DNA of 64,000 nt from an uncultured Chlorobiaceae bacterium (GTDB lineage: Bacteria > Bacteroidota > Chlorobiia > Chlorobiales > Chlorobiaceae), in assembly GCA_903866255.1 (NCBI GenBank), contig CAIPMW010000087.1:1-64000 (forward strand), given 5' to 3'. Positions 1 through 12,182 of the stretch are shown here, one piece after another; within the stretch, counting starts at the first letter, position 1; every line of letters starts with the position of its first letter. The notes below the pieces were generated by a model. That model was not told the origin of the DNA and ran no database searches. It worked only from the letters and a program-made list of their open reading frames with translations. The position numbers were made by a program, and so were the translations under genes.

Positions 1-332
1 GTGGGGAGGTTTGCCAGTGCTGACCTGTATGGGAGAGTCATTTGCGAGCCGCATGGCGGCAAGTCTGCTCAATGCCATCAGGCTGCCGGAACTCATCACC
101 ACCTCCCTGGCAGAGTATGAAGCGCTTGCCATTGAGCTGGCGCTGAACCCGGAGAAGCTGGGGGAAATCAGACGAAACCTGGAGCGGAACCGTCTGACGA
201 CACCACTGTTTGATACACAACGTTTTACGCGGCATATCGAAGCGGCATACACGGCCATGTATGAACGCTCTATGGCTGATTTGCCGCCAGAGCATATCAG
301 CATTGAGCCAATCGAAAGTTTCAGCAAGCCGG
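1..332 (+). repeat. Direct repeat copy A (OGT module end)
   Basis: Bases 1-332 match 3751-4082 at about nine of ten positions by eye (roughly 30 mismatches), without any gap. The repeat encodes the last part of the OGT-like catalytic domain and the linker to the next TPR block. The copy probably continues left of the window. Confidence 0.9.
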
Positions 333-3300
333 AGGCGAACAGCCATTATGATCATGCCACCATGCTGCCATCAGCACTTGCGTTGCACAAGCAGGGGAAG
401 TTGGCTGAAGCTGAATCAATTTACCGGGAGCTTTTGCAGTTACATCCCCGGCATGTCGATGCCTTGCAGCTTTTGGCAACCATTGCTGCGCAGAGGAGGC
501 AGTATGAGGCAGCAGTTGAGTTGTTTGACAGGGCACTCAGTATAAATCCGGACCACATCAGTTCACTGAACAATCGTGGTGTTGCATTACACGAGTTGAG
601 GCAGTATGCTGAGGCACTCCTGGCCTTCGACCGGGCAATATTATTGAGTCCTGATTATGTTGATGCTTACTACAATCGAGGAAATACGTTAAAAGTGTTG
701 AAGCGATACGGTGAGGCTTTGCTGAGTTTTGACAAGGCGATAGCGTGCAAGCCCGACAAAGCTGACGCACACTATCATCGGGGGATCACGTTAAGAAAGT
801 TGAAACGGTATAACGAGTCATTATTGAGTACCGACAAGGCAATAGCCCTCAAACCTGATTATGCTGAAGCGTATAATAGCCGGGGCGCAACATTAAAAGA
901 GTTGATGCTGTACAAAGAGGCTCTCGATAGTTATGGAAAGTCTGTTGAGCTCAATCCTGCCTGTGCGGAGGTCTATTCAAATATGGGAAATGTGTTAATG
1001 GCTTTGCGAAGGAATGAGGAGGCGCAGAGAAATTTTGAGCGTGCCATTGCACTCAAGCCAGATTATGCCGGCGGATACTGGAATCTGAGCCTGTGTTGCC
1101 TCTTGACCGGAAATTTTGAAAAAGGATGGGAATTGTATGAATGGAGATGGAAGAACGATGCTCTTGCTTTCCCAAAACGCAAATTTGAACAGCCCCTCTG
1201 GCTGGGTAGTGAAAAGATAGAGGGAAAGAGGGTTTTGTTGTACAGTGAGCAGGGGTTGGGTGACACGATACAGTTTTGTCGCTATGCAAGAATGGTTGCA
1301 GAGAAGGGGGCGAAGGTTATTCTTGAAGTGCAGAAACCACTTGTCAAACTATTGGCCAGTCTCGATGGTGTGGCGCAATTGGTTGGTTATGGTGAAGCGT
1401 TGCCGGATTTTGATGTTCAAGCCCCCTTGTTGAGCTTGCCGCTGGCATTCAAAACCACTCTTGAGACGATTCCCTGTTCAGCCGCATATCTGAAGAGCAA
1501 TGCTGAAAAGGTAAACGCATGGGCGTTACGATTAGGTGAAAAGAGAATGCCACGTATAGGTTTGGTGTGGAGTGGCAGCACCTGGCACAACAACGACCCC
1601 GTGAGAAGTGTTTTGTTGCTGGAATTGTTGAAACACCTTCCGGTTGGTTTTGAGTATATCAGCCTGCAAAAAAAGGTTCGTGACGTTGACAGGCCGGTTC
1701 TCCAGTCTCATCCAGAAATGCGTCATTTTGGTGATGAGTTGCATGATTTCAGTGATACGGCAGCGCTTTGTGAACTCATGGATATTGTTATCAGCGTTGA
1801 TACAAGTGTGGCTCATGCAAGTGGAGCATTAGGTAAGCCTACGTGGGTGTTGCTGCCATTTTCTCCGGATTGGCGCTGGCTTCTTGATCGTCCTGACAGT
1901 CCGTGGTATCCAGCGATGCGTCTTTTCCGTCAACAGAGTCTTGACGGATGGAGCGGGGTGTTTGAAGAAGTTTGTGAGGCATTGATGGATCTCTTGCATC
2001 AAACGTCCCAAGAGTTTGCTACCGGTCAACAGATCAGTTCGGCTCTGTTAGAGGGCGTTGCGCCAGAACCGGCCTCTCTGCCGGTACCTTATGCCTCCAT
2101 GTTGCCATCAGCTCATTCGCTGTATCAACAAGGGCGTTTGACTGAAGCCGCAGCGCTCTGCAGGGAGATGTTGCTGTCACAACCTGAAGATGTCAAGGTA
2201 TTGACACTGTTGGCCATAATCTGTGCAAGGGAGAGGAAGTTTGTCGATGCGATTGCCTTGTTTGATCGGGCGATTACACTGAAATCCGCTGATCCTGTGC
2301 TGTTTTATAATCTCGGCTGTGCCTTGCAGCAGATGAAGAGGTATGAAGAGGCGATAAGCAGTTATGAAAAGGCGATACAATATAAACCTGATTATGTTGC
2401 CGCATGCAATAATATGGGAAATGTCTTCTTCAAATTGACACGGTACGAGGAGGCATTACAGTGTTATGAACGGGCGATTGTGTTGAGTCCTGATTATGTT
2501 CAGGCTCACTCGAATCGTGGCAATGTATTACATCTGTTGAAGCGGTATGAAGAGTCCCTGTCAAGTTATGACAGGGCTCTGCTGCTGAGTCCTGATTATG
2601 TTGATGCGCACTATAACCGGGGTATTGCCCTGCATCATTTAAAACAGTATGAGAAGGAGCTGGAATGCTATGAGAAAGTACTGCTGCTCAAGCCCGACTA
2701 TGCCAATATATCTGGTATATGGTTGCATTCAAGGATGAGGATTTGTGAATGGAGTGATGTAGACAGGCATTGCGCTCAACTTGCGTCAAACATCAAGCGT
2801 GGCAACCAGGCATCTGCTCCATTTACGGTATTAGTGCTTTTTGACTCCCCTTCAATACAGCAACAGGCCGCCAGGATTTTTACACAGACAAGATTTCCTG
2901 CTAATCCCGTGCTTTCGGGGATTACCAAACGTGTCCCGCGTGATAAAATTCGTATTGGTTACTATTCGGGAGACTTTCATAACCACGCCACCTCGTATTT
3001 GATGGCAGGGTTGTTTAAAGAACATGACCGATCAAGGTTTGAACTGTTTGCCTTTTCATTTGGTCCAGACAAGGATGATGAAATGCGGAGACGGGTAGTT
3101 GCTGTATTTGACCATTTTATTGATGTACGGAACCAGTCTGACGAGGAGGTTGCCAGGCTTTCGCGCAGTTTGGAGATAGATATTGCCATTGACCTGAAAG
3201 GGTTTACCCGGGATTCTCGAACCGGTATCTTTGCATTGCGTGCAGCGCCGATACAGGTCAATTATCTGGGCTATCCAGGGACGATGGGTGCTGAATATAT

Positions 3301-6094
3301 TGACTATCTTATTGCTGATGCGACACTTATACCAGAACAGAGCAGAAAGTATTATACCGAAAAGATAGTTTCTCTTCCTTACAGCTATCAAGTGAACGAT
3401 GTAACGCGTGGTATAGCAAAGAGAGTGTTTACCCGAAAAGAGCTTGGGTTGCCGGAAAAAGGTTTTGTCTTCTGCTGTTTCAATAATAACTACAAAATTT
3501 CCCCAACCATCTTTGATTGCTGGATGCGCCTCCTCAAGCGTCTTGAGGGGAGTCTCTTGTGGCTCCTGGCGGATAACCCGAAAGCTGCAGATAATTTGCG
3601 TAAAGAGGCAATGCTGCGTGGTGTTGATGCAGAAAGGCTGATTTTTGCCCGGCGAATGCCTCTTGCAGAACACCTTGCCCGGCATCGATCAGCCGATCTT
3701 TTTCTGGATACACTGTCGTACAATGCTCATACTACGGCAAGTGATGCGTTGTGGGGAGGTTTGCCAGTGTTGACCTGTATGGGAGGGTCATTTGCGAGTC
3801 GGGTTGCAGCAAGCCTGCTCAATGCCATCAAGCTGCCGGAACTCATCACCACCTCACTGGCAGAGTACGAAGCGCTGGCAATTGAGCTGGCGCTGAACCC
3901 GGAGAAGCTGGGGCACATCAGACGAAAACTGGAACGGAACCGTCTGACGACACCACTGTTTGATACCCGGCGTTTTACGAGGCATATCGAAGCGGCATAC
4001 AGTGCCATGTATGAACGCTCTATGGCTGATTTACCTCCAGCGCATTTCAGCATTGAACCAATTGAACGTTTCAGCAAGCCGGGGTTTGCCAACAAGCGTT
4101 CTGATCATGCCGCCACGCTGCAATCGGCTCTTGTGCTGCATAATCAGGGGAGGTTGACTGAAGCTGATGCGATCTACAGGGAGCTTTTGCAGCTTCAGCC
4201 GAACCATAGTGAGGCTTTGAGGTTATTGGCGACACTTACTGCACAGAGAGGCCTCTTTACCGAAGCGGTGGTGTTGTTTGACCAGGCACTTGCCATCAGC
4301 CCGGATAACTCCATGTTGCTCTATAATCGCGGGTTGGCACTGCAGGAGCTGAAAAGGTATGATGACGCACTGGCAAGTTATGCAAAAACTGTTGCTGTTA
4401 ACCCCCATTATGCGGATGCGCACAATAATCGGGGAGTTATTTTCAAAGAGCTGAAGAGATATGAGGAGGCACTGTCCAGCTATGACAGGGCAATAGCTGT
4501 CAAGTCTGGTTATGCCGATGCTTACTATAATCGTGGCAACGTCTTGCTGGAGCTGAAGAGGTTTAGGGAGGCGCTGTTGAGTTATGAAAAGGCGATTGCT
4601 CTCAAGCCCGATTATGCCCGTGCGCACTGGAGTCGAGGGAATATCTTTGAAGGCATGAGGAGGTATGAAGAGGCCTTGTCAAGTTATGAAAAGGCGATAG
4701 CGGCTAATCCGGGCAATGTTGCCTGGTTTGGGATATGGTTGCATATCAGGATGATGATTTGTGAATGGAGTGATTTTGAGAAACACCTTGTTACCCTTGC
4801 GGCAATCATAGAGAGTGGCACAAGCGCGTTGGCGCCATATCCTGTTCTTGCTCTCTTTGATTCTCCCCTGCTCCAGCAAAGAGTGGCGAAGCTGTATGCA
4901 GAGACAAGATTTCCTTCCAATCAAACGCTTCCGGTGATGCCCTGGCCCGGGCGTCACAACAAAATTCGTATTGGCTATTATTCAGCGGATTTCCGCTGTC
5001 ATCCAGTCTCTTATCTGATGGTCGGGCTGTTTGAGATGCACGACAGAAGCCGGTTTGAGGTGATTGCGTTTTCATTTGGATCAGCCGAAGACGATGAGAT
5101 GCGGCAAAGGGTTGCAGCAGCATTTGACCAGTTTATTGATGTGAGCAACCACTCAGACAGCGATGTTGCGCTGCTTTCGAGAACTCTTGAGATTGATATA
5201 GCCGTTGATCTGGGAGGGTTTACGGCCGGGAGCCGCACTGGCGTTTTTGCATTGCGTGCAGCGCCGATACAGGTCAATTATATGGGCTACCCTGGCACGA
5301 CGGGAGCCGAATATATTGACTATCTCATTGCGGACAGAATAGTTATTCCGGAAAAAAGTCGGCAGTACTTTACTGAAAAGATTGTATACCTGCCCGGCAG
5401 TTTTCAGGCGAACGACTCGAAGCGTCTCATTGCCGACAGGGTGTTCTCTCGAAAAGAGTTGGGCCTGCCGGAAAAAGGTTTTGTCTTTTGTTGTTTTAAC
5501 AATAGTTATAAAATTACACCATCGGCGTTTGCAAGCTGGATGCGGATTCTTCAGCATGTCGAAGGCAGTGTGCTCTGGCTCGTTGAAAGGCATCCAAAAG
5601 AGACAGTCAATTTACGTCGGGAAGCAGCAGGTGCCGGCGTTGAAACTGAACGGTTGATTTTTGCTCAGCGTCTCCCTCTGTATGCCGATTATCTGGCCAG
5701 ATATCGGACAGCGGATCTTTTTCTGGATACTGTTGTATTCAACGCTCACACAACAGCAAGTGATGCGTTATGGGCCGGTCTGCCGGTCTTGACCTCTCCT
5801 GGTGAATCGTATATCAGTCGAGTTGCCGCAAGCCTTCTTCATGCTCTCCAACTGTCGGAACTTATTGCCACATCACCCGCAGAGTATGAAGCGCTGGCGA
5901 TAGAGCTGGCTCTGAACCCCGGGAAACTGATGCACCTTCGTAAAAAGTTGGCAGCGAATCGTCTGACCGCGTCGCTGTTTGATACACGACGCTTTACGAG
6001 GCATATCGAAGCGGCATACACTGCCATGTATGAGCGATATCAGACTGATGTGTCTCCAGACCATTTTTCTGTTGAGTCGTTCGATGGGCAGTAA
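2..6094 (+). CDS. Giant multi-module TPR / O-GlcNAc-transferase (SPINDLY/OGT-like) protein, 5' partial
   Basis: The reading frame is open to the left edge, so the true start lies outside the window; about 2,030 residues are visible. Counting from base 11, the order is: the tail of an OGT-like catalytic module (about 1-100); tetratricopeptide repeats with A-x-x-x-Y-x-R/N-G and A-I-x-L-x-P-D-Y signatures (115-390); a GT9/heptosyltransferase-like domain (390-665, motifs QGLGDTIQF and SVDTSVAHASGALGKPTWVLLP); TPRs (700-895); an OGT-like catalytic domain (GYYSGDFHNHATSYLM, IDLKGFT, FLDTLSYNAHTTASDALWGGLPVLT; 900-1345); TPRs (1365-1570); and a second OGT-like domain (1570-2013). The family transfers sugars, classically GlcNAc, to Ser/Thr of proteins in the cytoplasm. 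Modules are nearly identical in places, so the gene grew by internal duplication. The sugar donor and target proteins are unknown. Confidence 0.88.
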   Translation, partial: WGGLPVLTCMGESFASRMAASLLNAIRLPELITTSLAEYEALAIELALNPEKLGEIRRNLERNRLTTPLFDTQRFTRHIEAAYTAMYERSMADLPPEHISIEPIESFSKPEANSHYDHATMLPSALALHKQGKLAEAESIYRELLQLHPRHVDALQLLATIAAQRRQYEAAVELFDRALSINPDHISSLNNRGVALHELRQYAEALLAFDRAILLSPDYVDAYYNRGNTLKVLKRYGEALLSFDKAIACKPDKADAHYHRGITLRKLKRYNESLLSTDKAIALKPDYAEAYNSRGATLKELMLYKEALDSYGKSVELNPACAEVYSNMGNVLMALRRNEEAQRNFERAIALKPDYAGGYWNLSLCCLLTGNFEKGWELYEWRWKNDALAFPKRKFEQPLWLGSEKIEGKRVLLYSEQGLGDTIQFCRYARMVAEKGAKVILEVQKPLVKLLASLDGVAQLVGYGEALPDFDVQAPLLSLPLAFKTTLETIPCSAAYLKSNAEKVNAWALRLGEKRMPRIGLVWSGSTWHNNDPVRSVLLLELLKHLPVGFEYISLQKKVRDVDRPVLQSHPEMRHFGDELHDFSDTAALCELMDIVISVDTSVAHASGALGKPTWVLLPFSPDWRWLLDRPDSPWYPAMRLFRQQSLDGWSGVFEEVCEALMDLLHQTSQEFATGQQISSALLEGVAPEPASLPVPYASMLPSAHSLYQQGRLTEAAALCREMLLSQPEDVKVLTLLAIICARERKFVDAIALFDRAITLKSADPVLFYNLGCALQQMKRYEEAISSYEKAIQYKPDYVAACNNMGNVFFKLTRYEEALQCYERAIVLSPDYVQAHSNRGNVLHLLKRYEESLSSYDRALLLSPDYVDAHYNRGIALHHLKQYEKELECYEKVLLLKPDYANISGIWLHSRMRICEWSDVDRHCAQLASNIKRGNQASAPFTVLVLFDSPSIQQQAARIFTQTRFPANPVLSGITKRVPRDKIRIGYYSGDFHNHATSYLMAGLFKEHDRSRFELFAFSFGPDKDDEMRRRVVAVFDHFIDVRNQSDEEVARLSRSLEIDIAIDLKGFTRDSRTGIFALRAAPIQVNYLGYPGTMGAEYIDYLIADATLIPEQSRKYYTEKIVSLPYSYQVNDVTRGIAKRVFTRKELGLPEKGFVFCCFNNNYKISPTIFDCWMRLLKRLEGSLLWLLADNPKAADNLRKEAMLRGVDAERLIFARRMPLAEHLARHRSADLFLDTLSYNAHTTASDALWGGLPVLTCMGGSFASRVAASLLNAIKLPELITTSLAEYEALAIELALNPEKLGHIRRKLERNRLTTPLFDTRRFTRHIEAAYSAMYERSMADLPPAHFSIEPIERFSKPGFANKRSDHAATLQSALVLHNQGRLTEADAIYRELLQLQPNHSEALRLLATLTAQRGLFTEAVVLFDQALAISPDNSMLLYNRGLALQELKRYDDALASYAKTVAVNPHYADAHNNRGVIFKELKRYEEALSSYDRAIAVKSGYADAYYNRGNVLLELKRFREALLSYEKAIALKPDYARAHWSRGNIFEGMRRYEEALSSYEKAIAANPGNVAWFGIWLHIRMMICEWSDFEKHLVTLAAIIESGTSALAPYPVLALFDSPLLQQRVAKLYAETRFPSNQTLPVMPWPGRHNKIRIGYYSADFRCHPVSYLMVGLFEMHDRSRFEVIAFSFGSAEDDEMRQRVAAAFDQFIDVSNHSDSDVALLSRTLEIDIAVDLGGFTAGSRTGVFALRAAPIQVNYMGYPGTTGAEYIDYLIADRIVIPEKSRQYFTEKIVYLPGSFQANDSKRLIADRVFSRKELGLPEKGFVFCCFNNSYKITPSAFASWMRILQHVEGSVLWLVERHPKETVNLRREAAGAGVETERLIFAQRLPLYADYLARYRTADLFLDTVVFNAHTTASDALWAGLPVLTSPGESYISRVAASLLHALQLSELIATSPAEYEALAIELALNPGKLMHLRKKLAANRLTASLFDTRRFTRHIEAAYTAMYERYQTDVSPDHFSVESFDGQ
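3751..4082 (+). repeat. Direct repeat copy B (OGT module end)
   Basis: This is the second copy of the repeat at 1-332, 3.75 kb downstream and in the same reading frame. A third, more divergent copy of the same protein segment ends the gene at about 5767-6080. Most differences between copies A and B are single-base changes and the frame is kept. Confidence 0.9.
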
Positions 6095-6372
6095 ACAGGG
6101 TAAAGAATGAAGAGTGCAATCAAAGCCCATCTTGTCGGCAAAGAGCCGAAAGAGGGGTGGAAAATATCCAGCGCCTGTTTTGCTATTTCGTAATTATTCT
6201 TTATAATTGGGCGCAGGCTTGTTGTTTGCTTTTTTTTGGGCCACCCGGTTTTTTTATACAAGAGTTGGGTGTTGGTTGTCTGGAAATAAAAAACAGCGTC
6301 GCAGGTGTATGGCGAAATAGTCGGCTGATCGAACGTTTTTTTAGCATCCACTTACAATTAAACAGTAATAAA

Positions 6373-6558
6373 ATGAGCATAAAGAAAGAGTGGGTATCAC
6401 CAGAACTGATAGTTTTGACGCGTAATAATTCTGAAGAGGCTGTATTGACTGCCTGCAAGGGTAATGGTTCAATGAGCGGCGTGGTTTCAGATAACTTTGA
6501 ATGTATTGGTTCTGATCTTAGTGTGTGTGCGGCGTGTGATGTATCTGCTGACAGTTAG
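6373..6558 (+). CDS. Small Cys-rich peptide with PEL-type leader; candidate RiPP precursor
   Basis: The peptide has 61 residues. The first half (KKEWVSPELIVLTR, then NNSEEAVLTACK) reads like the leader of a ribosomally made, modified peptide. The second half is rich in Gly, Ser, Asp and Cys, with cysteines at 28, 44, 52 and 55. The ATG at 6373 was chosen because the leader-like segment begins there. The frame runs open further upstream (to about 6157), but that stretch is low-complexity and unlike a protein. No strong Shine-Dalgarno site is visible. It follows the giant OGT-like gene by 278 bases on the same strand. No radical-SAM, lanthipeptide or transporter gene is in the window. Leader resemblance is from memory of similar short peptides; modification is inference. 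Confidence 0.6.
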   Translation: MSIKKEWVSPELIVLTRNNSEEAVLTACKGNGSMSGVVSDNFECIGSDLSVCAACDVSADS

Positions 6559-6936
6559 TGTCATGTCACGCGTATAAATGTTGCATAGGTTTATTTTTCG
6601 CATTTCCTGTAAAGTATTTTATGGAGTAAAGGTAGTCGATTAATACTAATTCTCATAGCCATAATTCAACAGTCTCTTTATTCATCACTCAACACTGGTT
6701 TTTGGAATCTGTACTTTTGGTATTTCGTGGTGAAAGCAGATAATATTCGACAGCCTCGACTTTTTGTGGCGTTTCGCCGGAGGGTTGATGGCTGTTCGTC
6801 TATTTTTCTGTTCAGATAAAAACAGACCGTCTGTTTTTTCTCTCGCTCCGGTTTTTTTATATTCCCTCCATTGAAGCTCTGTTTTTCGGCTGCTGTGCCG
6901 AAATTTCCCTGTTTTGTTATCCGTAATAAATGTCAC
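6559..6936. other. Intergenic region upstream of bchV
   Basis: There is no convincing gene in these 378 bases. The region is AT-rich and holds one clear dyad at 6818-6838 (entered separately). It probably carries the promoter and leader of bchV, but no confident -35/-10 pair is visible. Confidence 0.6.
6818..6839. terminator. Perfect dyad with T-tract upstream of bchV
   Basis: AAAAACAGA (6818-6826) and TCTGTTTTT (6830-6838) form a perfect 9-bp stem around CCG. The A-rich and T-rich flanks let it act as an intrinsic terminator on either strand, although the GC core is short. An operator dyad for bchV, about 100 bases downstream, is an alternative. Confidence 0.4.
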
Positions 6937-7410
6937 ATGCCCCGCTATACCCCGGAACAACTTGTCAAACGAAATGCCTCCATCTGGACAGATATTCAGA
7001 TTATTCTTGCCCCAATTCAGTTTTTCTTTTTTATTGGAGGCCTGACCGTAACAACCCTCTTTGCCAATGGCCTCTTTATCTCCGGTTTTTACTGGGTAAG
7101 TCTGGCGATTCTCTTTAAAACGCTCTTTTTTGCTCTTCTCTTTATCACGGGGATGTTTTTTGAAAAAGAGGTATTTGATCAGTGGGTCTACTCCAAAGAG
7201 TTTTTATGGGAAGATATCGGGAGCACTGTTGCCGCCTTCTTTCATCTCCTCTATTTTTTTCTGGCCTGGTTTGGCGCTTCCCAGGAGGTGCTGCTCTGGG
7301 ATGCATTCCTGGCTTATGTTACCTACGTGCTTAATGCGTTGCAATATCTGGTCAGGATTATTCTGGAAAAACTTAACGAACGCAATCTCAGGATGGATGG
7401 TCAGTTATGA
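6937..7410 (+). CDS. bchV: 3-vinyl bacteriochlorophyllide hydratase (BchF/BchV family)
   Basis: This 157-residue membrane protein hydrates the C-3 vinyl group of the chlorin ring to a hydroxyethyl group during bacteriochlorophyll c/d/e synthesis. Family marks are the start [17 protein letters not shown], four predicted membrane segments (about 20-43, 50-74, 94-113, 118-142), and the motif KEVFDQW (77-83) followed by WED (91-93). Green sulfur bacteria carry two paralogs, bchF and bchV. The bchV name is chosen because, as I recall, bchV lies next to the RuBisCO-like-protein cluster in Chlorobaculum tepidum, as this gene does. bchQ, which I recall beside bchV there, is not in this window. The ATG at 6937 fits family length; no clear ribosome binding site is seen. 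The next gene overlaps by ATGA, so the two are translationally coupled. Confidence 0.85.
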
Positions 7411-7625
7411 AGTACAACTTTAAACAACTGTGGAACAGAGCATTCCTGTTTGTAGGGCCTGCCTGGTCTCTCCTGGTCTGTATGATATGGTTTTCTGGTC
7501 AATTGGTGACCATCAGCGATAAAATTATTTTTCTCTGTATAGTGATTCCAGGTTTTCTTGTTGTCTACAGCTCAGGATATTTTATTGAAGGGTGGCACGA
7601 AAAGAAAAAAAGAGAGCAGAGTTGA
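7407..7625 (+). CDS. Small two-helix membrane protein of unknown function
   Basis: This 72-residue protein starts within the stop of bchV (ATGA overlap). It has two hydrophobic segments (about 13-33 and 40-61) and a basic tail (HEKKKREQ). I do not recognise a family. Its coupling to bchV suggests a role at the membrane near bacteriochlorophyll biosynthesis, for example as an accessory subunit, but this is inferred from position only. Confidence 0.7.
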
Positions 7626-7690
7626 GCTTTGTATCTCCATATCTTTATTAATCATCATACCGTTTTTCGGTGTGAGAAGTATAATCTGTT

Positions 7691-9808
7691 ATGCAGAACC
7701 TTTGGAACGACGCTGATCTTCAACGCTCCGTGCGGGAGCAATGCAGTACGCCGGAGATGCAGTCAGAACTTGCTGAGCTGGTCTATGCATCTCGCCTGCT
7801 TGGCCGTGAAAGTTCGCTGGTGATGCATGGTGGAGGCAATACCTCGGTCAAATGTGAACTGGTCGATATGGTTGGCAATCGATCGGAGGTGCTGCTGATC
7901 AAGGGAAGCGGTGTTGATTTGAGCCGGGTTACCGGTCGCGACTATACCCCCCTCCGGCTGGGGCCTCTTCGTAAGCTTGTGGAGCTTTTTACGCACAACG
8001 ACAGGATAAGCGAAGAGTCGCTTCAGCGGTTGTCTACCAAAGAGTTTAAACATCTGTTGCTGTTGAATATGTTCAGCCTGACCGATCACATGGCTGAAAA
8101 GAGATTGACACCATCCATTGAGACGCTCCTCCACGCTTTTCTGCCCCACAGGTATATTCTTCATACCCACTCCTTTGCGCTCCTCACACTCAGTAATCAG
8201 CCGGATGGAGTCCGGCTCTGCAGCGAAACGCTTGGAGAGGGTTTTGGCTCGGTGCCCTATATCAAGCCAGGTCTTGGCCTTGCCCGTTCTGCAGCCAGCG
8301 TCTACGAAACTGACGTGAATATAAAAGGGCTGGTGTTACAGAAACATGGTCTTGTGACGTTCGGGTCAACAGCTCAGGAGGCCTACGGCAGGATGATTGA
8401 GGCGGTTACCCTGCTTGAACAGCGTATAGCTGCGGCTGGCAGAAAAAGTTTTCCATCAGTCTCCCTGCCGGCAACAATTGCCCCGGTTGAAGTGGCAGCG
8501 CCTGTTATCCGGGGCGCCTGCGTTGATGAAAAAGCTCCTGGCACACGTGAGTATCATCAGTTCATTCTGGATTTTCGTACCTCTGCCGATATTCTTGAGT
8601 ATGTGAATAGCGCCGTTCTTGTTCATATAAGTCAAAAAGGTGCCATGACGCCTGACTTTATTATAAGGACCAAGAATAAGCCGCTCGTTCTCCCAGCCCC
8701 TGATGCAGGCGATATTCCTGCCTTCAAGGCGGCGGTTCATGAGGCAGTGCAACGATATCGTCAGGAGTATCGTGAGTATTTCAAGACCCAGCAGGCCGCT
8801 ACAGCAATGCCAGTGACCATGCTTGATTCGCTCCCCCGAGTGGTTCTTGTTCCCGGTCTTGGGCTTTTCGGGCTTGGCAAAACCGCAGAATCTGCAGCAG
8901 TGAATGCTGATATTGCAACATGCACGGCTTCGGCCATTCTTGATGCCGAGTCCCTTGGTGCTTTTGAGACCATCAGTGACCGTGAGGTGTTTGAGATAGA
9001 GTATTGGGACATGGAACAGGCCAAAATGACCAAGGTGCATCACGATGTCTTTGCCGGTAAAGTGGTTATGGTAACCGGTGCAGCGAGTGGTATTGGTCTG
9101 GCAACAGCCAAAGCTTTCAGGCAGAAAGGGGCTGAACTTGTTTTACTCGACCTTACCCGTGGGGCACTCGACAAGGCGGCTGAGGCGCTCGGCGGCAATG
9201 TGCTTGCCCTCACCTGTGACGTAACATCACGAACCGACATCCGCTCGGCATTCGATACCACCTGTCGCAAATATGGTGGCGTTGATATTCTTGTTTCCAA
9301 TGTTGGTGTTGCCATTCAGGGACGCATTGGGGAAGTTTCCGACGAGTTGCTTCGCAAAAGTTTTGATATCAACTTTTTTTCACACCAGTCTATAGCCCAG
9401 GAGGCAGTAAGAGTGATGAAACAGCAGGGCACGGGTGGCGTACTGCTCTTCAATGTTTCAAAACAGGCGGTCAATCCCGGCCCGGATTTTGGCCCTTATG
9501 GTCTGGCCAAAGCGGCAACTCTTTTTCTTGTTCGTCAATATGCGCTTGATCATGGAAGAGACGGGATTCGTTCAAACGGCATTAATGCCGATCGCATTCG
9601 CACCGGCCTGCTTACCGAAGAGATGATCAAGACTCGCTCTGCCGCCCGGGGTCTGAGTGAGAGGGAGTATATGGCCGGAAACCTCTTGCAGCTTGAGGTG
9701 ACCGCTGAAGATGTGGCGGAAGCCTTTGTGCATCTTGCCCTTGAAACCAGGACAACAGGTTCAATTACCACGGTGGATGGCGGCAACATTGCGGCTGCCC
9801 TCCGTTGA
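7691..9808 (+). CDS. Bifunctional class II aldolase / short-chain dehydrogenase fusion
   Basis: The 705 residues fall into two enzymes. Residues 20-260 are a class II aldolase/adducin domain with HGGGNTSVK (46-54), KGSG (71-74) and a metal-binding HTHS near 155. Residues 455-705 are a short-chain dehydrogenase with the dinucleotide motif TGAASGIG (about 460) and the catalytic YGLAK (about 603-607). Such fusions are often annotated as rhamnulose-1-phosphate aldolase/alcohol dehydrogenase and act on sugar phosphates and the lactaldehyde-type product. There are no rhamnose catabolic genes here; instead the gene leads a run with an LsrF-type aldolase and a RuBisCO-like protein. The substrate is therefore open. 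Confidence 0.88.
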   Translation: MQNLWNDADLQRSVREQCSTPEMQSELAELVYASRLLGRESSLVMHGGGNTSVKCELVDMVGNRSEVLLIKGSGVDLSRVTGRDYTPLRLGPLRKLVELFTHNDRISEESLQRLSTKEFKHLLLLNMFSLTDHMAEKRLTPSIETLLHAFLPHRYILHTHSFALLTLSNQPDGVRLCSETLGEGFGSVPYIKPGLGLARSAASVYETDVNIKGLVLQKHGLVTFGSTAQEAYGRMIEAVTLLEQRIAAAGRKSFPSVSLPATIAPVEVAAPVIRGACVDEKAPGTREYHQFILDFRTSADILEYVNSAVLVHISQKGAMTPDFIIRTKNKPLVLPAPDAGDIPAFKAAVHEAVQRYRQEYREYFKTQQAATAMPVTMLDSLPRVVLVPGLGLFGLGKTAESAAVNADIATCTASAILDAESLGAFETISDREVFEIEYWDMEQAKMTKVHHDVFAGKVVMVTGAASGIGLATAKAFRQKGAELVLLDLTRGALDKAAEALGGNVLALTCDVTSRTDIRSAFDTTCRKYGGVDILVSNVGVAIQGRIGEVSDELLRKSFDINFFSHQSIAQEAVRVMKQQGTGGVLLFNVSKQAVNPGPDFGPYGLAKAATLFLVRQYALDHGRDGIRSNGINADRIRTGLLTEEMIKTRSAARGLSEREYMAGNLLQLEVTAEDVAEAFVHLALETRTTGSITTVDGGNIAAALR

Positions 9809-9862
9809 GAGAGAGCATGAACAGATAAACAATTACAACTGAAACAGAGGAGATTGAACGAC

Positions 9863-10744
9863 ATGGCTGAATACGACAAGGACAAACAGGCAAAAGAGTA
9901 TTACCTTGATACCCCGATTAACACCTATGGATTTTTTCTCAAGGGAGCCCACTCTCTTGACTGGGGTATGAAGAATCGTCTCTCACGAATATTCCGGCCT
10001 GATACCGGCAAAACGGTGATGCTTGCCATTGATCATGGCTATTTTCAGGGCCCGACCACCGGCCTTGAGCGTCCCGATGTCAATATTGTGCCGCTTATGC
10101 CTTATGCCGATGCTATCATGCTGACTCGTGGTATTTTGCGTACAACAGTACCACCAAGCCTTACCAAAGCTGTTGTTATGCGCTGCAGTGGAGGCCCGAG
10201 CATTCTCAAGGAGCTCTCCGATGAAGAGCTTGCTGTGGATATCGAGGATGCCATCCGCATGAATGTAGCAGCCATAACTCTCCAGATATTCATTGGCGGT
10301 GAGTATGAGACCCGTTCCATTCACAACATGACCAGGCTTGTCGATATGGGCCTTCGTTATGGCATTCCTACCATGGCTGTTACTGCTGTGGGCAAGGATA
10401 TGGTACGTGATGCCAAATATTTCAGACTGGCCTGCAGGATGGCAGCCGAGCTCGGTGCGCAGATTGTCAAGACCTATTATGTGCCGGAGGATTTCGATAC
10501 GATTATTGCTTCATGTCCGGTGCCGATTGTTATGGCCGGAGGCAAAAAACTTCCCGAATTTGAGGCGCTGACGATGTCGTGGAACGCCATTAATGAGGGC
10601 GCTTCGGGAGTTGATATGGGGCGCAACATTTTCCAGAGTGATTATCCGGTGGCCATGATGAAAGCGGTCAATAAAGTGGTTCATGAGCATCTTGATCCGC
10701 AACAGGCGTTTGACTACTTCAATTCCATCAAGGCAGAGGGATAA
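9863..10744 (+). CDS. LsrF/DeoC-FbaB-type class I aldolase
   Basis: This 293-residue TIM-barrel aldolase belongs to the class I (Schiff-base) FbaB/LsrF group. [17 protein letters not shown] near the N-terminus, the [13 protein letters not shown] strand carrying the candidate Schiff-base lysine, and the phosphate-binding PIVMAGGKK are typical. LsrF cleaves or thiolyses phosphorylated autoinducer-2 in enteric bacteria; no lsr transport or kinase genes are present, so that role should not be assumed. The ATG at 9863 is preferred over a TTG at 9854 because AGAGGAGA (9846-9853) sits about ten bases upstream of it. The gene follows the aldolase-dehydrogenase fusion by 54 bases and precedes the RuBisCO-like protein. 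Confidence 0.85.
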
Positions 10745-10880
10745 GTTGCACAGGTGGTCAGATAGTATGGCAGAAGTGGCTGGTCGCACAGAAGTACAAT
10801 TATTGGAGTCTGGTTTTATTAATAGATGCCCTTGAGCAGCGTGTGGCAGGCCAGCACACAGGGGAGTATGGTGTTTTTCT

Positions 10881-12182
10881 ATGAACAGAGAGGATATTAA
10901 AGGTTTTTTTGCCTCAAGGGAGCAGCTCGACATGGCAGACTACCTGACGCTTGATTACTACCTGGAGTGTGTGGGAGATATTGAGGTGGCCCTTGCTCAT
11001 TTCTGCAGTGAACAATCTACTGCCCAGTGGAAACGTGTTGATCATGATGAAGACTTTCGTCCAAAGTATGCAGCGAAGGTTATCAATCTCACCATTGAGG
11101 GTGAGCTGCAGGAGCTGAGTTATCCAGTGTATCATGCCACAACCGGGCCAATTCACGCTTGTCGTGTCACTATTGCACATCCTCATGGTAATTTTGGGAC
11201 AAAAATTCCCAATCTTCTCTCTGCAGTCTGTGGCGAAGGAGCATTTTTTACTCCCGGAGTGCCGGTGGTCAAGCTGCTTGATATCAGTTTTCCAGAGTCT
11301 TATCTTCTTGCTTTTGATGGTCCGAAATTTGGTATTGACGGCATTCGGGATCTTCTGAAGGCTTATGATCGCCCCATATTTTTTGGTGTCGTGAAACCAA
11401 ATATCGGCCTCAGTCCTGATGACTTTGCTGAAATTGCCCGCCAAAGCTGGCTTGGCGGGCTTGATATTGCCAAAGATGATGAGATGCTGGCTGATGTTGA
11501 CTGGTCATCCCTTGTCGAACGATCTCATGCGTTGGGAAATGCCAGAGTGAGCGCAGAGCGGGAGACTGGCGAACCAAAAATTTATCTTGCAAATATAACC
11601 GATGAGGTTGACCGCTTGATTGAGCTGCACGATATTGCCGTCAGTAATGGAGCTAATGCGCTGCTGGTGAATGCCCTTCCGGTTGGTCTCAGCGCTGTCA
11701 GGATGTTGGCAAAACATACAAAGGTCCCTCTTATCGGCCATTTTCCTTTCATTGCCGCCTTCAGCCGCATGGAGAAATATGGCGTTCACTCCAGGGTGAT
11801 GACCAAGCTTCAGCGACTTGCCGGGCTTGATTCCATCATTATGCCGGGGTTTGGCAGCAGAATGATGACTCCCGAAGAGGAGGTAAAAGAGAATATACAG
11901 GAGTGTCTTCAGGAGTTCGGACATATCCGTCGCTCACTTCCGGTTCCAGGAGGAAGCGATTCTGCGCTGACGCTTGAAGGAGTGTACCGCAAGGTTGGCA
12001 GTGTTGATTTTGGTTTTGTGCCAGGTCGTGGTGTTTTTGGTCATCCCATGGGGCCAAAAGCCGGGGCGGCCAGTATTCGTCAGGCCTGGGAGGCAATTGA
12101 GCAGGGGATTACCCTTGAAACATTCTCTCTTGGTCGACCGGAACTCCAGGCAATGGTTGAGGGTGCAAAGGGGAAAAAGTAG
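10881..12182 (+). CDS. RuBisCO-like protein (form IV)
   Basis: The 433-residue sequence follows the green sulfur bacterial RuBisCO-like protein closely from start to end. The large-subunit barrel is intact, with VKPNIGL (about 171-177) and [10 protein letters not shown] (192-201), which keeps the Lys-Asp-Asp-Glu metal/carbamate site. The loop-6 and phosphate-binding segments differ from true RuBis[17 protein letters not shown] and [10 protein letters not shown] replace the usual motifs. Form IV proteins do not fix CO2. Loss of the Chlorobaculum tepidum homologue is known to disturb sulfur oxidation and stress responses, but to my knowledge its substrate is not established. Two aldolases lie upstream and a dehydrogenase starts five bases downstream, so it probably acts on a phosphorylated sugar or keto compound. 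Confidence 0.95.

Follow-up and report, generated by a model that had tools for sequence, protein, structure and literature searches.

Radical-SAM/SPASM RiPP systems with a PqqD-type chaperone, such as those for PQQ and sactipeptides, combine a small precursor carrying a conserved leader with a cassette that encodes a radical-SAM protein (CxxxCxxC plus C-terminal Cys), PqqD, a peptidase, and an exporter. Glycocins, such as sublancin and pallidocin, derive from a short Cys-containing precursor encoded near a glycosyltransferase gene. Their clusters contain genes for a SunS-like S-glycosyltransferase, a SunT-like peptidase/ABC transporter, and thiol-disulfide oxidoreductases (PMC6405829). In the HMW1C/HMW1 system, a GT41 gene is coupled to the gene of a large surface protein; HMW1C, an N-glycosyltransferase without a TPR fold, serves a two-partner-secreted adhesin (PMC3983070). 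The system studied here resembles the first group in its precursor, leader, and cassette, the second in having its short precursor near a glycosyltransferase gene, and the third in the coupling of a GT41 gene to a surface protein gene. We conclude that the peptide gene probably encodes an orphan precursor of the radical-SAM RiPP type that is modified in trans and happens to lie beside a separate, adhesin-linked OGT.

The window, i.e., the whole stretch of 64,000 nucleotides that was analysed, comprises bases 1-64000 of contig C87 from a 2.8-Mb genome (G000) of an uncultured Chlorobiaceae bacterium, assembled in 117 contigs. An OGT-like gene lies at its left edge (Table 1), and its 5' end is lost because base 1 of the window is base 1 of the contig. 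The ORF (2-6094, plus strand) is open and encodes 2030 amino acids. Pfam comparison revealed GT41 (PF13844, E 1e-188, five stretches) and approximately 15 TPRs, while a GT9-like stretch was spotted by eye (GLGDTIQ at 1253). The order of modules is TPR + GT41, GT9-like stretch, TPR + GT41, TPR + GT41, in agreement with the combination of modules that the preliminary description had reported. The GT41 motifs IGYYS-DF--H, GYPGT, YKI, and AHTT are intact in the two complete modules; among solved proteins, human OGT and XcOGT are their nearest relatives. By its TPR array and GT41 domain with conserved catalytic-region motifs, the protein can be assigned to the OGT-like GT41 enzymes. OGT modules were found in 27 of 65 genomes of the genus, and some of the proteins are giant, reaching 3517 amino acids.

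Table 1. Features at the left end of the window
Feature	Position	Strand	Basis
OGT-like multi-module protein, 5' end missing	1..6094	+	ORF, Pfam domains, motifs
First complete GT41 module, catalytic-region motifs IGYYSGDFHNHATSY, RAAPIQVNYLGYPGT, CFNNNYKI, NAHTTASDALW	2954..3755	+	Motif positions
Second complete GT41 module, catalytic-region motifs	4970..5774	+	Motif positions, solved relatives
61-aa precursor peptide, radical-SAM/PqqD-associated family	6373..6558	+	Homology, family alignment
Presumed leader, residues 1-29, consensus KKxWxxPELxVLxRxxxEEAVLxxCK	6373..6459	+	Residue conservation
Presumed core, residues 30-61, with C44, C52, C55, C-terminal S61	6460..6555	+	Family alignment
MITE-like repeat, 140-bp, imperfect terminal inverted repeats	6556..6697	+	Repeat comparison within genome
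Conserved membrane protein mem157, 157 aa, ATG 6937	6937..7410	+	Syntenic in all 16 relatives read

The 61-residue peptide has Cys residues at positions 28, 44, 52, and 55, as had been described, and homologues in other Chlorobia genomes. The homologues favour the ATG at 6373 as its start; a longer version with a GTG start (6157) appears in the ORF list. Judged by their sequences, the peptide and OGT-like genes are both confirmed as real. When 98 Chlorobia genomes were searched at the protein level, relatives of the peptide appeared below E 1e-3 in G038 (E 9.7e-8), G058, G066, and G065. A profile built from ten peptides recovered the same genomes and added G013, from another genus of the same family, at 1.1e-8, bringing to five the Chlorobia genomes with homologues besides that of the window. 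In G038, the precursors form an array with six copies in a row, of which five are open by profile and the sixth, a region with two stops, is a decayed copy (L035 9710-9945); one more open copy was seen by eye. Protein and profile searches for a second precursor in the window's own genome gave only weak matches, which lie within long frames of contigs C2 and C112.

In all, 26 homologous loci from many phyla came out of a genome-contig scan. Their record titles cover more than a dozen phylum-level names, archaea included, with binning errors possible because nearly all are MAGs. In 23 aligned members of the family, M1, W7, P10, E22, L25, C28, K29, C44, and C55 are invariant, and C52 and S61 are present in more than 90%. 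The mean top-residue frequency in the alignment is 0.68 for residues 1-29 versus 0.33 for residues 30-61, with leader conservation favoured by the use of the leader motif as the search pattern when the 26 loci were gathered. C44, C52, C55, and S61 were outside the search patterns; their conservation therefore places the family beyond chance. The window peptide carries both parts of the leader motif (W-x2-P and EE-x-V-L-x2-C-K), the three core Cys residues, and the C-terminal Ser. The viral-contig scan contained no relative of it, and no member of the family gave a convincing match to a Pfam or NCBIfam model. We found no description of the family in the open-licence literature, although other literature may hold one. 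Two other assignments of the peptide were considered and rejected. The L-T-A-C at residues 25-28 is lipobox-like, but the leader is charged and has no hydrophobic stretch, and this place is taken by LDNC, LEVC, or LEMC in relatives. Matches to lasso peptides and SSH-type RaS-RiPPs were stray and weak (best E 0.014).

Genes adjoining the homologues indicate the kind of system to which the peptide belongs. In a neighbour scan with profiles built from Chlorobia cassettes, radical-SAM genes were detected beside 22 of the 26 loci, 20 of them with PqqD as well (L159 and L168 have radical-SAM only). The association with radical-SAM, PqqD, and S26-like genes is thus typical but not universal: L161, L167, L169, and L172 have neither radical-SAM nor PqqD, three of these four being on contigs shorter than 9 kb. 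The cassette of the relatives comprises up to three radical-SAM proteins, PqqD, an S26-like peptidase, often an NTP_transf_5 protein, and an ABC exporter. It adjoins the homologues in G038, G058, G065, G066, and G013; radical-SAM, PqqD, S24/S26-like, and NTP_transf_5 genes surround them in the first four of these genomes, and an ABC gene in G038 and G066. On one contig of G066 (L037, C227), the radical-SAM B/C set, the HprK-like gene, and the precursor are each present twice. Of the 98 Chlorobia genomes, eight have a cassette, and every one of the six that carry the peptide is among these eight, a co-occurrence with a hypergeometric probability of 2.7e-8 (3.3e-7 without the window's own genome) when kinship of the genomes is ignored. 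The two cassette genomes without the peptide are G054, whose radical-SAM C gene has a stop, and G003, represented by a single weaker match. The earlier view of the peptide as RiPP-like is strongly supported by this conserved family and its neighbours.

Radical-SAM, PqqD, and S26-like genes are absent next to the window peptide in the sequence read (window 1-12000 and the ORFs of contig C8). The same genome nevertheless has a cassette, on contig C2. Its genes are all open and encode three radical-SAM proteins (A, B, and C), PqqD, an S26-like protein and a small membrane protein, as well as NTP_transf_5 and an ABC protein. The preliminary statement that no other modifying enzyme is visible holds for the stretch of the window that was read, but the genome does have such enzymes. 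The three radical-SAM proteins have CxxxCxxC motifs and no stops, and the PqqD protein scores above its cut-off. A simple pattern search did not find the LSGGQ signature in the ABC protein. Past the ABC gene, C2 ends in an IS (L047 1-1335) with a 389-aa DDE/DUF4372 transposase, at the position of the precursor array in G038; because the contig ends in the IS, the assembly could have missed an array on its far side. G000 and G038 have in common a degraded stretch, located between exporter and array (L047 1446-1682 and L035 11151-11371; 73% over 237 bases), that by eye is a reverse-transcriptase-like remnant. The S26-like protein of the window's genome (L047 6498-7454) matches TIGR02228 only weakly, and Cys (GTCMYP) replaces the nucleophile Ser that is usual in relatives (GxSMxP), so cleavage may differ. 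Cys-for-Ser proteins of this kind (GTCM-P) are also encoded in G013 (L155 5156-6103) and, in one copy, in L162 (10335-11399).

Since the C2 cassette is full-length, an IS occupies the place of the array, and no homologue besides the window gene was found in the genome, we infer that the peptide is very probably a stray precursor for the radical-SAM peptide-modifying system encoded elsewhere in the same genome. The conserved leader (residues 1 to about 29) would probably be read by the PqqD-type chaperone, and at least one of the three radical-SAM enzymes would act on the core by radical chemistry, possibly at Cys residues. The S26-like protein may cleave the leader, and the ABC protein may export the peptide. 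Several observations count against modification in trans: the only precursor is not adjacent to its supposed enzymes, its gene has no clear Shine-Dalgarno sequence, an array may lie beyond the IS on C2, and the S26-like and ABC proteins of the cassette show the departures described above. The first two would also fit a dead relic that rearrangement or transposition brought to this site and that has lost its expression or modification, as would the MITE-like element that begins at the TAG stop codon of the peptide gene and the absence of the surrounding island from this site in relatives. Three further copies of the element, 75-81% identical to the window copy, are present in the genome (C67, C105, and C95; L200-L202). 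We consider a relic unlikely, since the peptide frame is open, every invariant residue of the family is kept, the C-terminal Ser is at the expected position, and the cassette on C2 has no stops. An orphan position also has a parallel: in a Geobacter MAG (L161), two tandem precursors (9995-10460) have no cassette within about 10 kb. This pair is a precedent for precursors apart from a cassette, another orphan case.

It had originally been proposed that the OGT glycosylates the peptide in a glycocin-like manner, on Ser or Cys. The two genes are on the same strand, 278 bases apart, the GT41 motifs are intact, and the core does contain Ser and Cys residues. The refuting observation set in advance was, however, made: not one of the 26 homologous loci has a GT41 gene beside the peptide, and radical-SAM, PqqD, and S26-like genes are found there instead, which led us to reject the pairing. 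When 59 loci around OGT genes, the syntenic flanks, and C8 (511 kb) were scanned with the profile together with the window, no peptide other than the window copy was found. Peptide and OGT occur together in the window's genome, G038, and G066, on different contigs in the latter two, and within the genus (65 genomes) the presence of OGT showed no association with that of the peptide (three of five peptide genomes, P 0.34). The neighbours of the window peptide that were read encode adhesins, OGT, mem157, and RhaD. The glycosyltransferase among them is of the GT41 type, and the SunS-like, SunT-like, and thiol-disulfide oxidoreductase genes of glycocin clusters (PMC6405829) are absent from these surroundings. 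Unlike in glycocins, the precursor thus belongs to another family with other partner genes, and its association with OGT is not conserved. A sugar-transferring pair is highly improbable, and the proximity of the two genes looks like an accident of position.

The OGT is better considered apart from the peptide. Contig C8 of the same genome carries rpsB-tsf-pyrH-recX, followed by large DUF4347/cadherin and dockerin-like ORFs, and then by the start of an OGT gene that runs off the contig. Because rpsB-tsf-pyrH-recX on C8 completes the synteny with mem157-rhaD in the window, C8 and C87 are very probably adjacent, with the OGT gene continuing into C8 across a gap of ~0.7 kb, as estimated by comparison with its other modules. 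In relatives, the old gene order leads from rpsB-tsf-pyrH-recX to mem157 and rhaD, with no OGT and no peptide. DNA similarity to 16 relatives starts between 6833 and 6937, and mem157 with a rhaD-like gene (7691-9808) forms the right flank of an island of roughly 21 kb between recX and mem157-rhaD; the island is absent from the site in the 16 relatives read. Some relatives carry other genes upstream of mem157, indicating that the site is variable. The probable start codon of the OGT gene (L154, base 991, minus strand) lies on C8, and the start overlaps the stop of the DUF4347/cadherin adhesin gene by 16 bases.

Similar neighbourhoods occur elsewhere. In L204 (G054 C79) and L206 (G079 C71), genes for giant multi-module OGT homologues of more than 2800 amino acids directly follow genes for HlyD, an ABC exporter, and an outer-membrane protein, with a Big_9/cadherin-type protein gene preceding the exporter and outer-membrane genes in G054, and one OGT homologue in G038 follows a DUF4214 protein gene. 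This arrangement, together with the overlap, makes it more likely that the window OGT serves the large surface adhesins encoded upstream, with the DUF4347/cadherin proteins as its likely substrates. Action on unrelated cytoplasmic proteins, with neither peptide nor adhesins as targets, is a real possibility, somewhat short of an even chance: in relatives, several homologues with a single module have housekeeping genes around them, against which we set the overlap with the adhesin gene and the gene surroundings in G054, G079, and G038. If adhesins are the substrates, the arrangement would still differ from that of HMW1C, in that TPR-bearing OGT-type modules follow DUF4347/cadherin proteins. Sequence comparison thus establishes the peptide family, its genomic partners, the cassette on C2, and the overlap of the adhesin and OGT genes, from which modification, cleavage, export, pairing in trans, and the substrate of the OGT are deduced.

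The peptide-modifying cassette also differs from known radical-SAM/SPASM systems. It encodes three different radical-SAM proteins, and none of those scanned reached an NCBIfam equivalog cut-off. Among solved sequences, radical-SAM C comes closest to SkfB (6efn) and PqqE (6c8v), both with low scores. GeoRSP and SynChlorMet (TIGR04302/04303 and TIGR04248/04250/04251) likewise combine radical-SAM/SPASM with PqqD-like proteins and show distant similarity; membership in either was rejected, as scores were far below the cut-offs (96 versus 400 for ScmF and 28 versus 100 for the GeoRSP PqqD). That the family constitutes an uncurated cross-phylum class of four-Cys RiPPs, with its own chemistry by three radical-SAM proteins, PqqD, and an S26-like protein, and that the single precursor of this Chlorobium-type genome moved away from its enzymes and is modified in trans, is conceivable as a whole, though on balance doubtful. 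Since the family is spread over phyla yet has no Pfam or NCBIfam model, a profile for it should find precursors in many more genomes. For the organism studied here, a guess at glycosylation based on proximity is replaced by a testable pairing, in which one precursor and one cassette, located apart in the same genome, would belong together.
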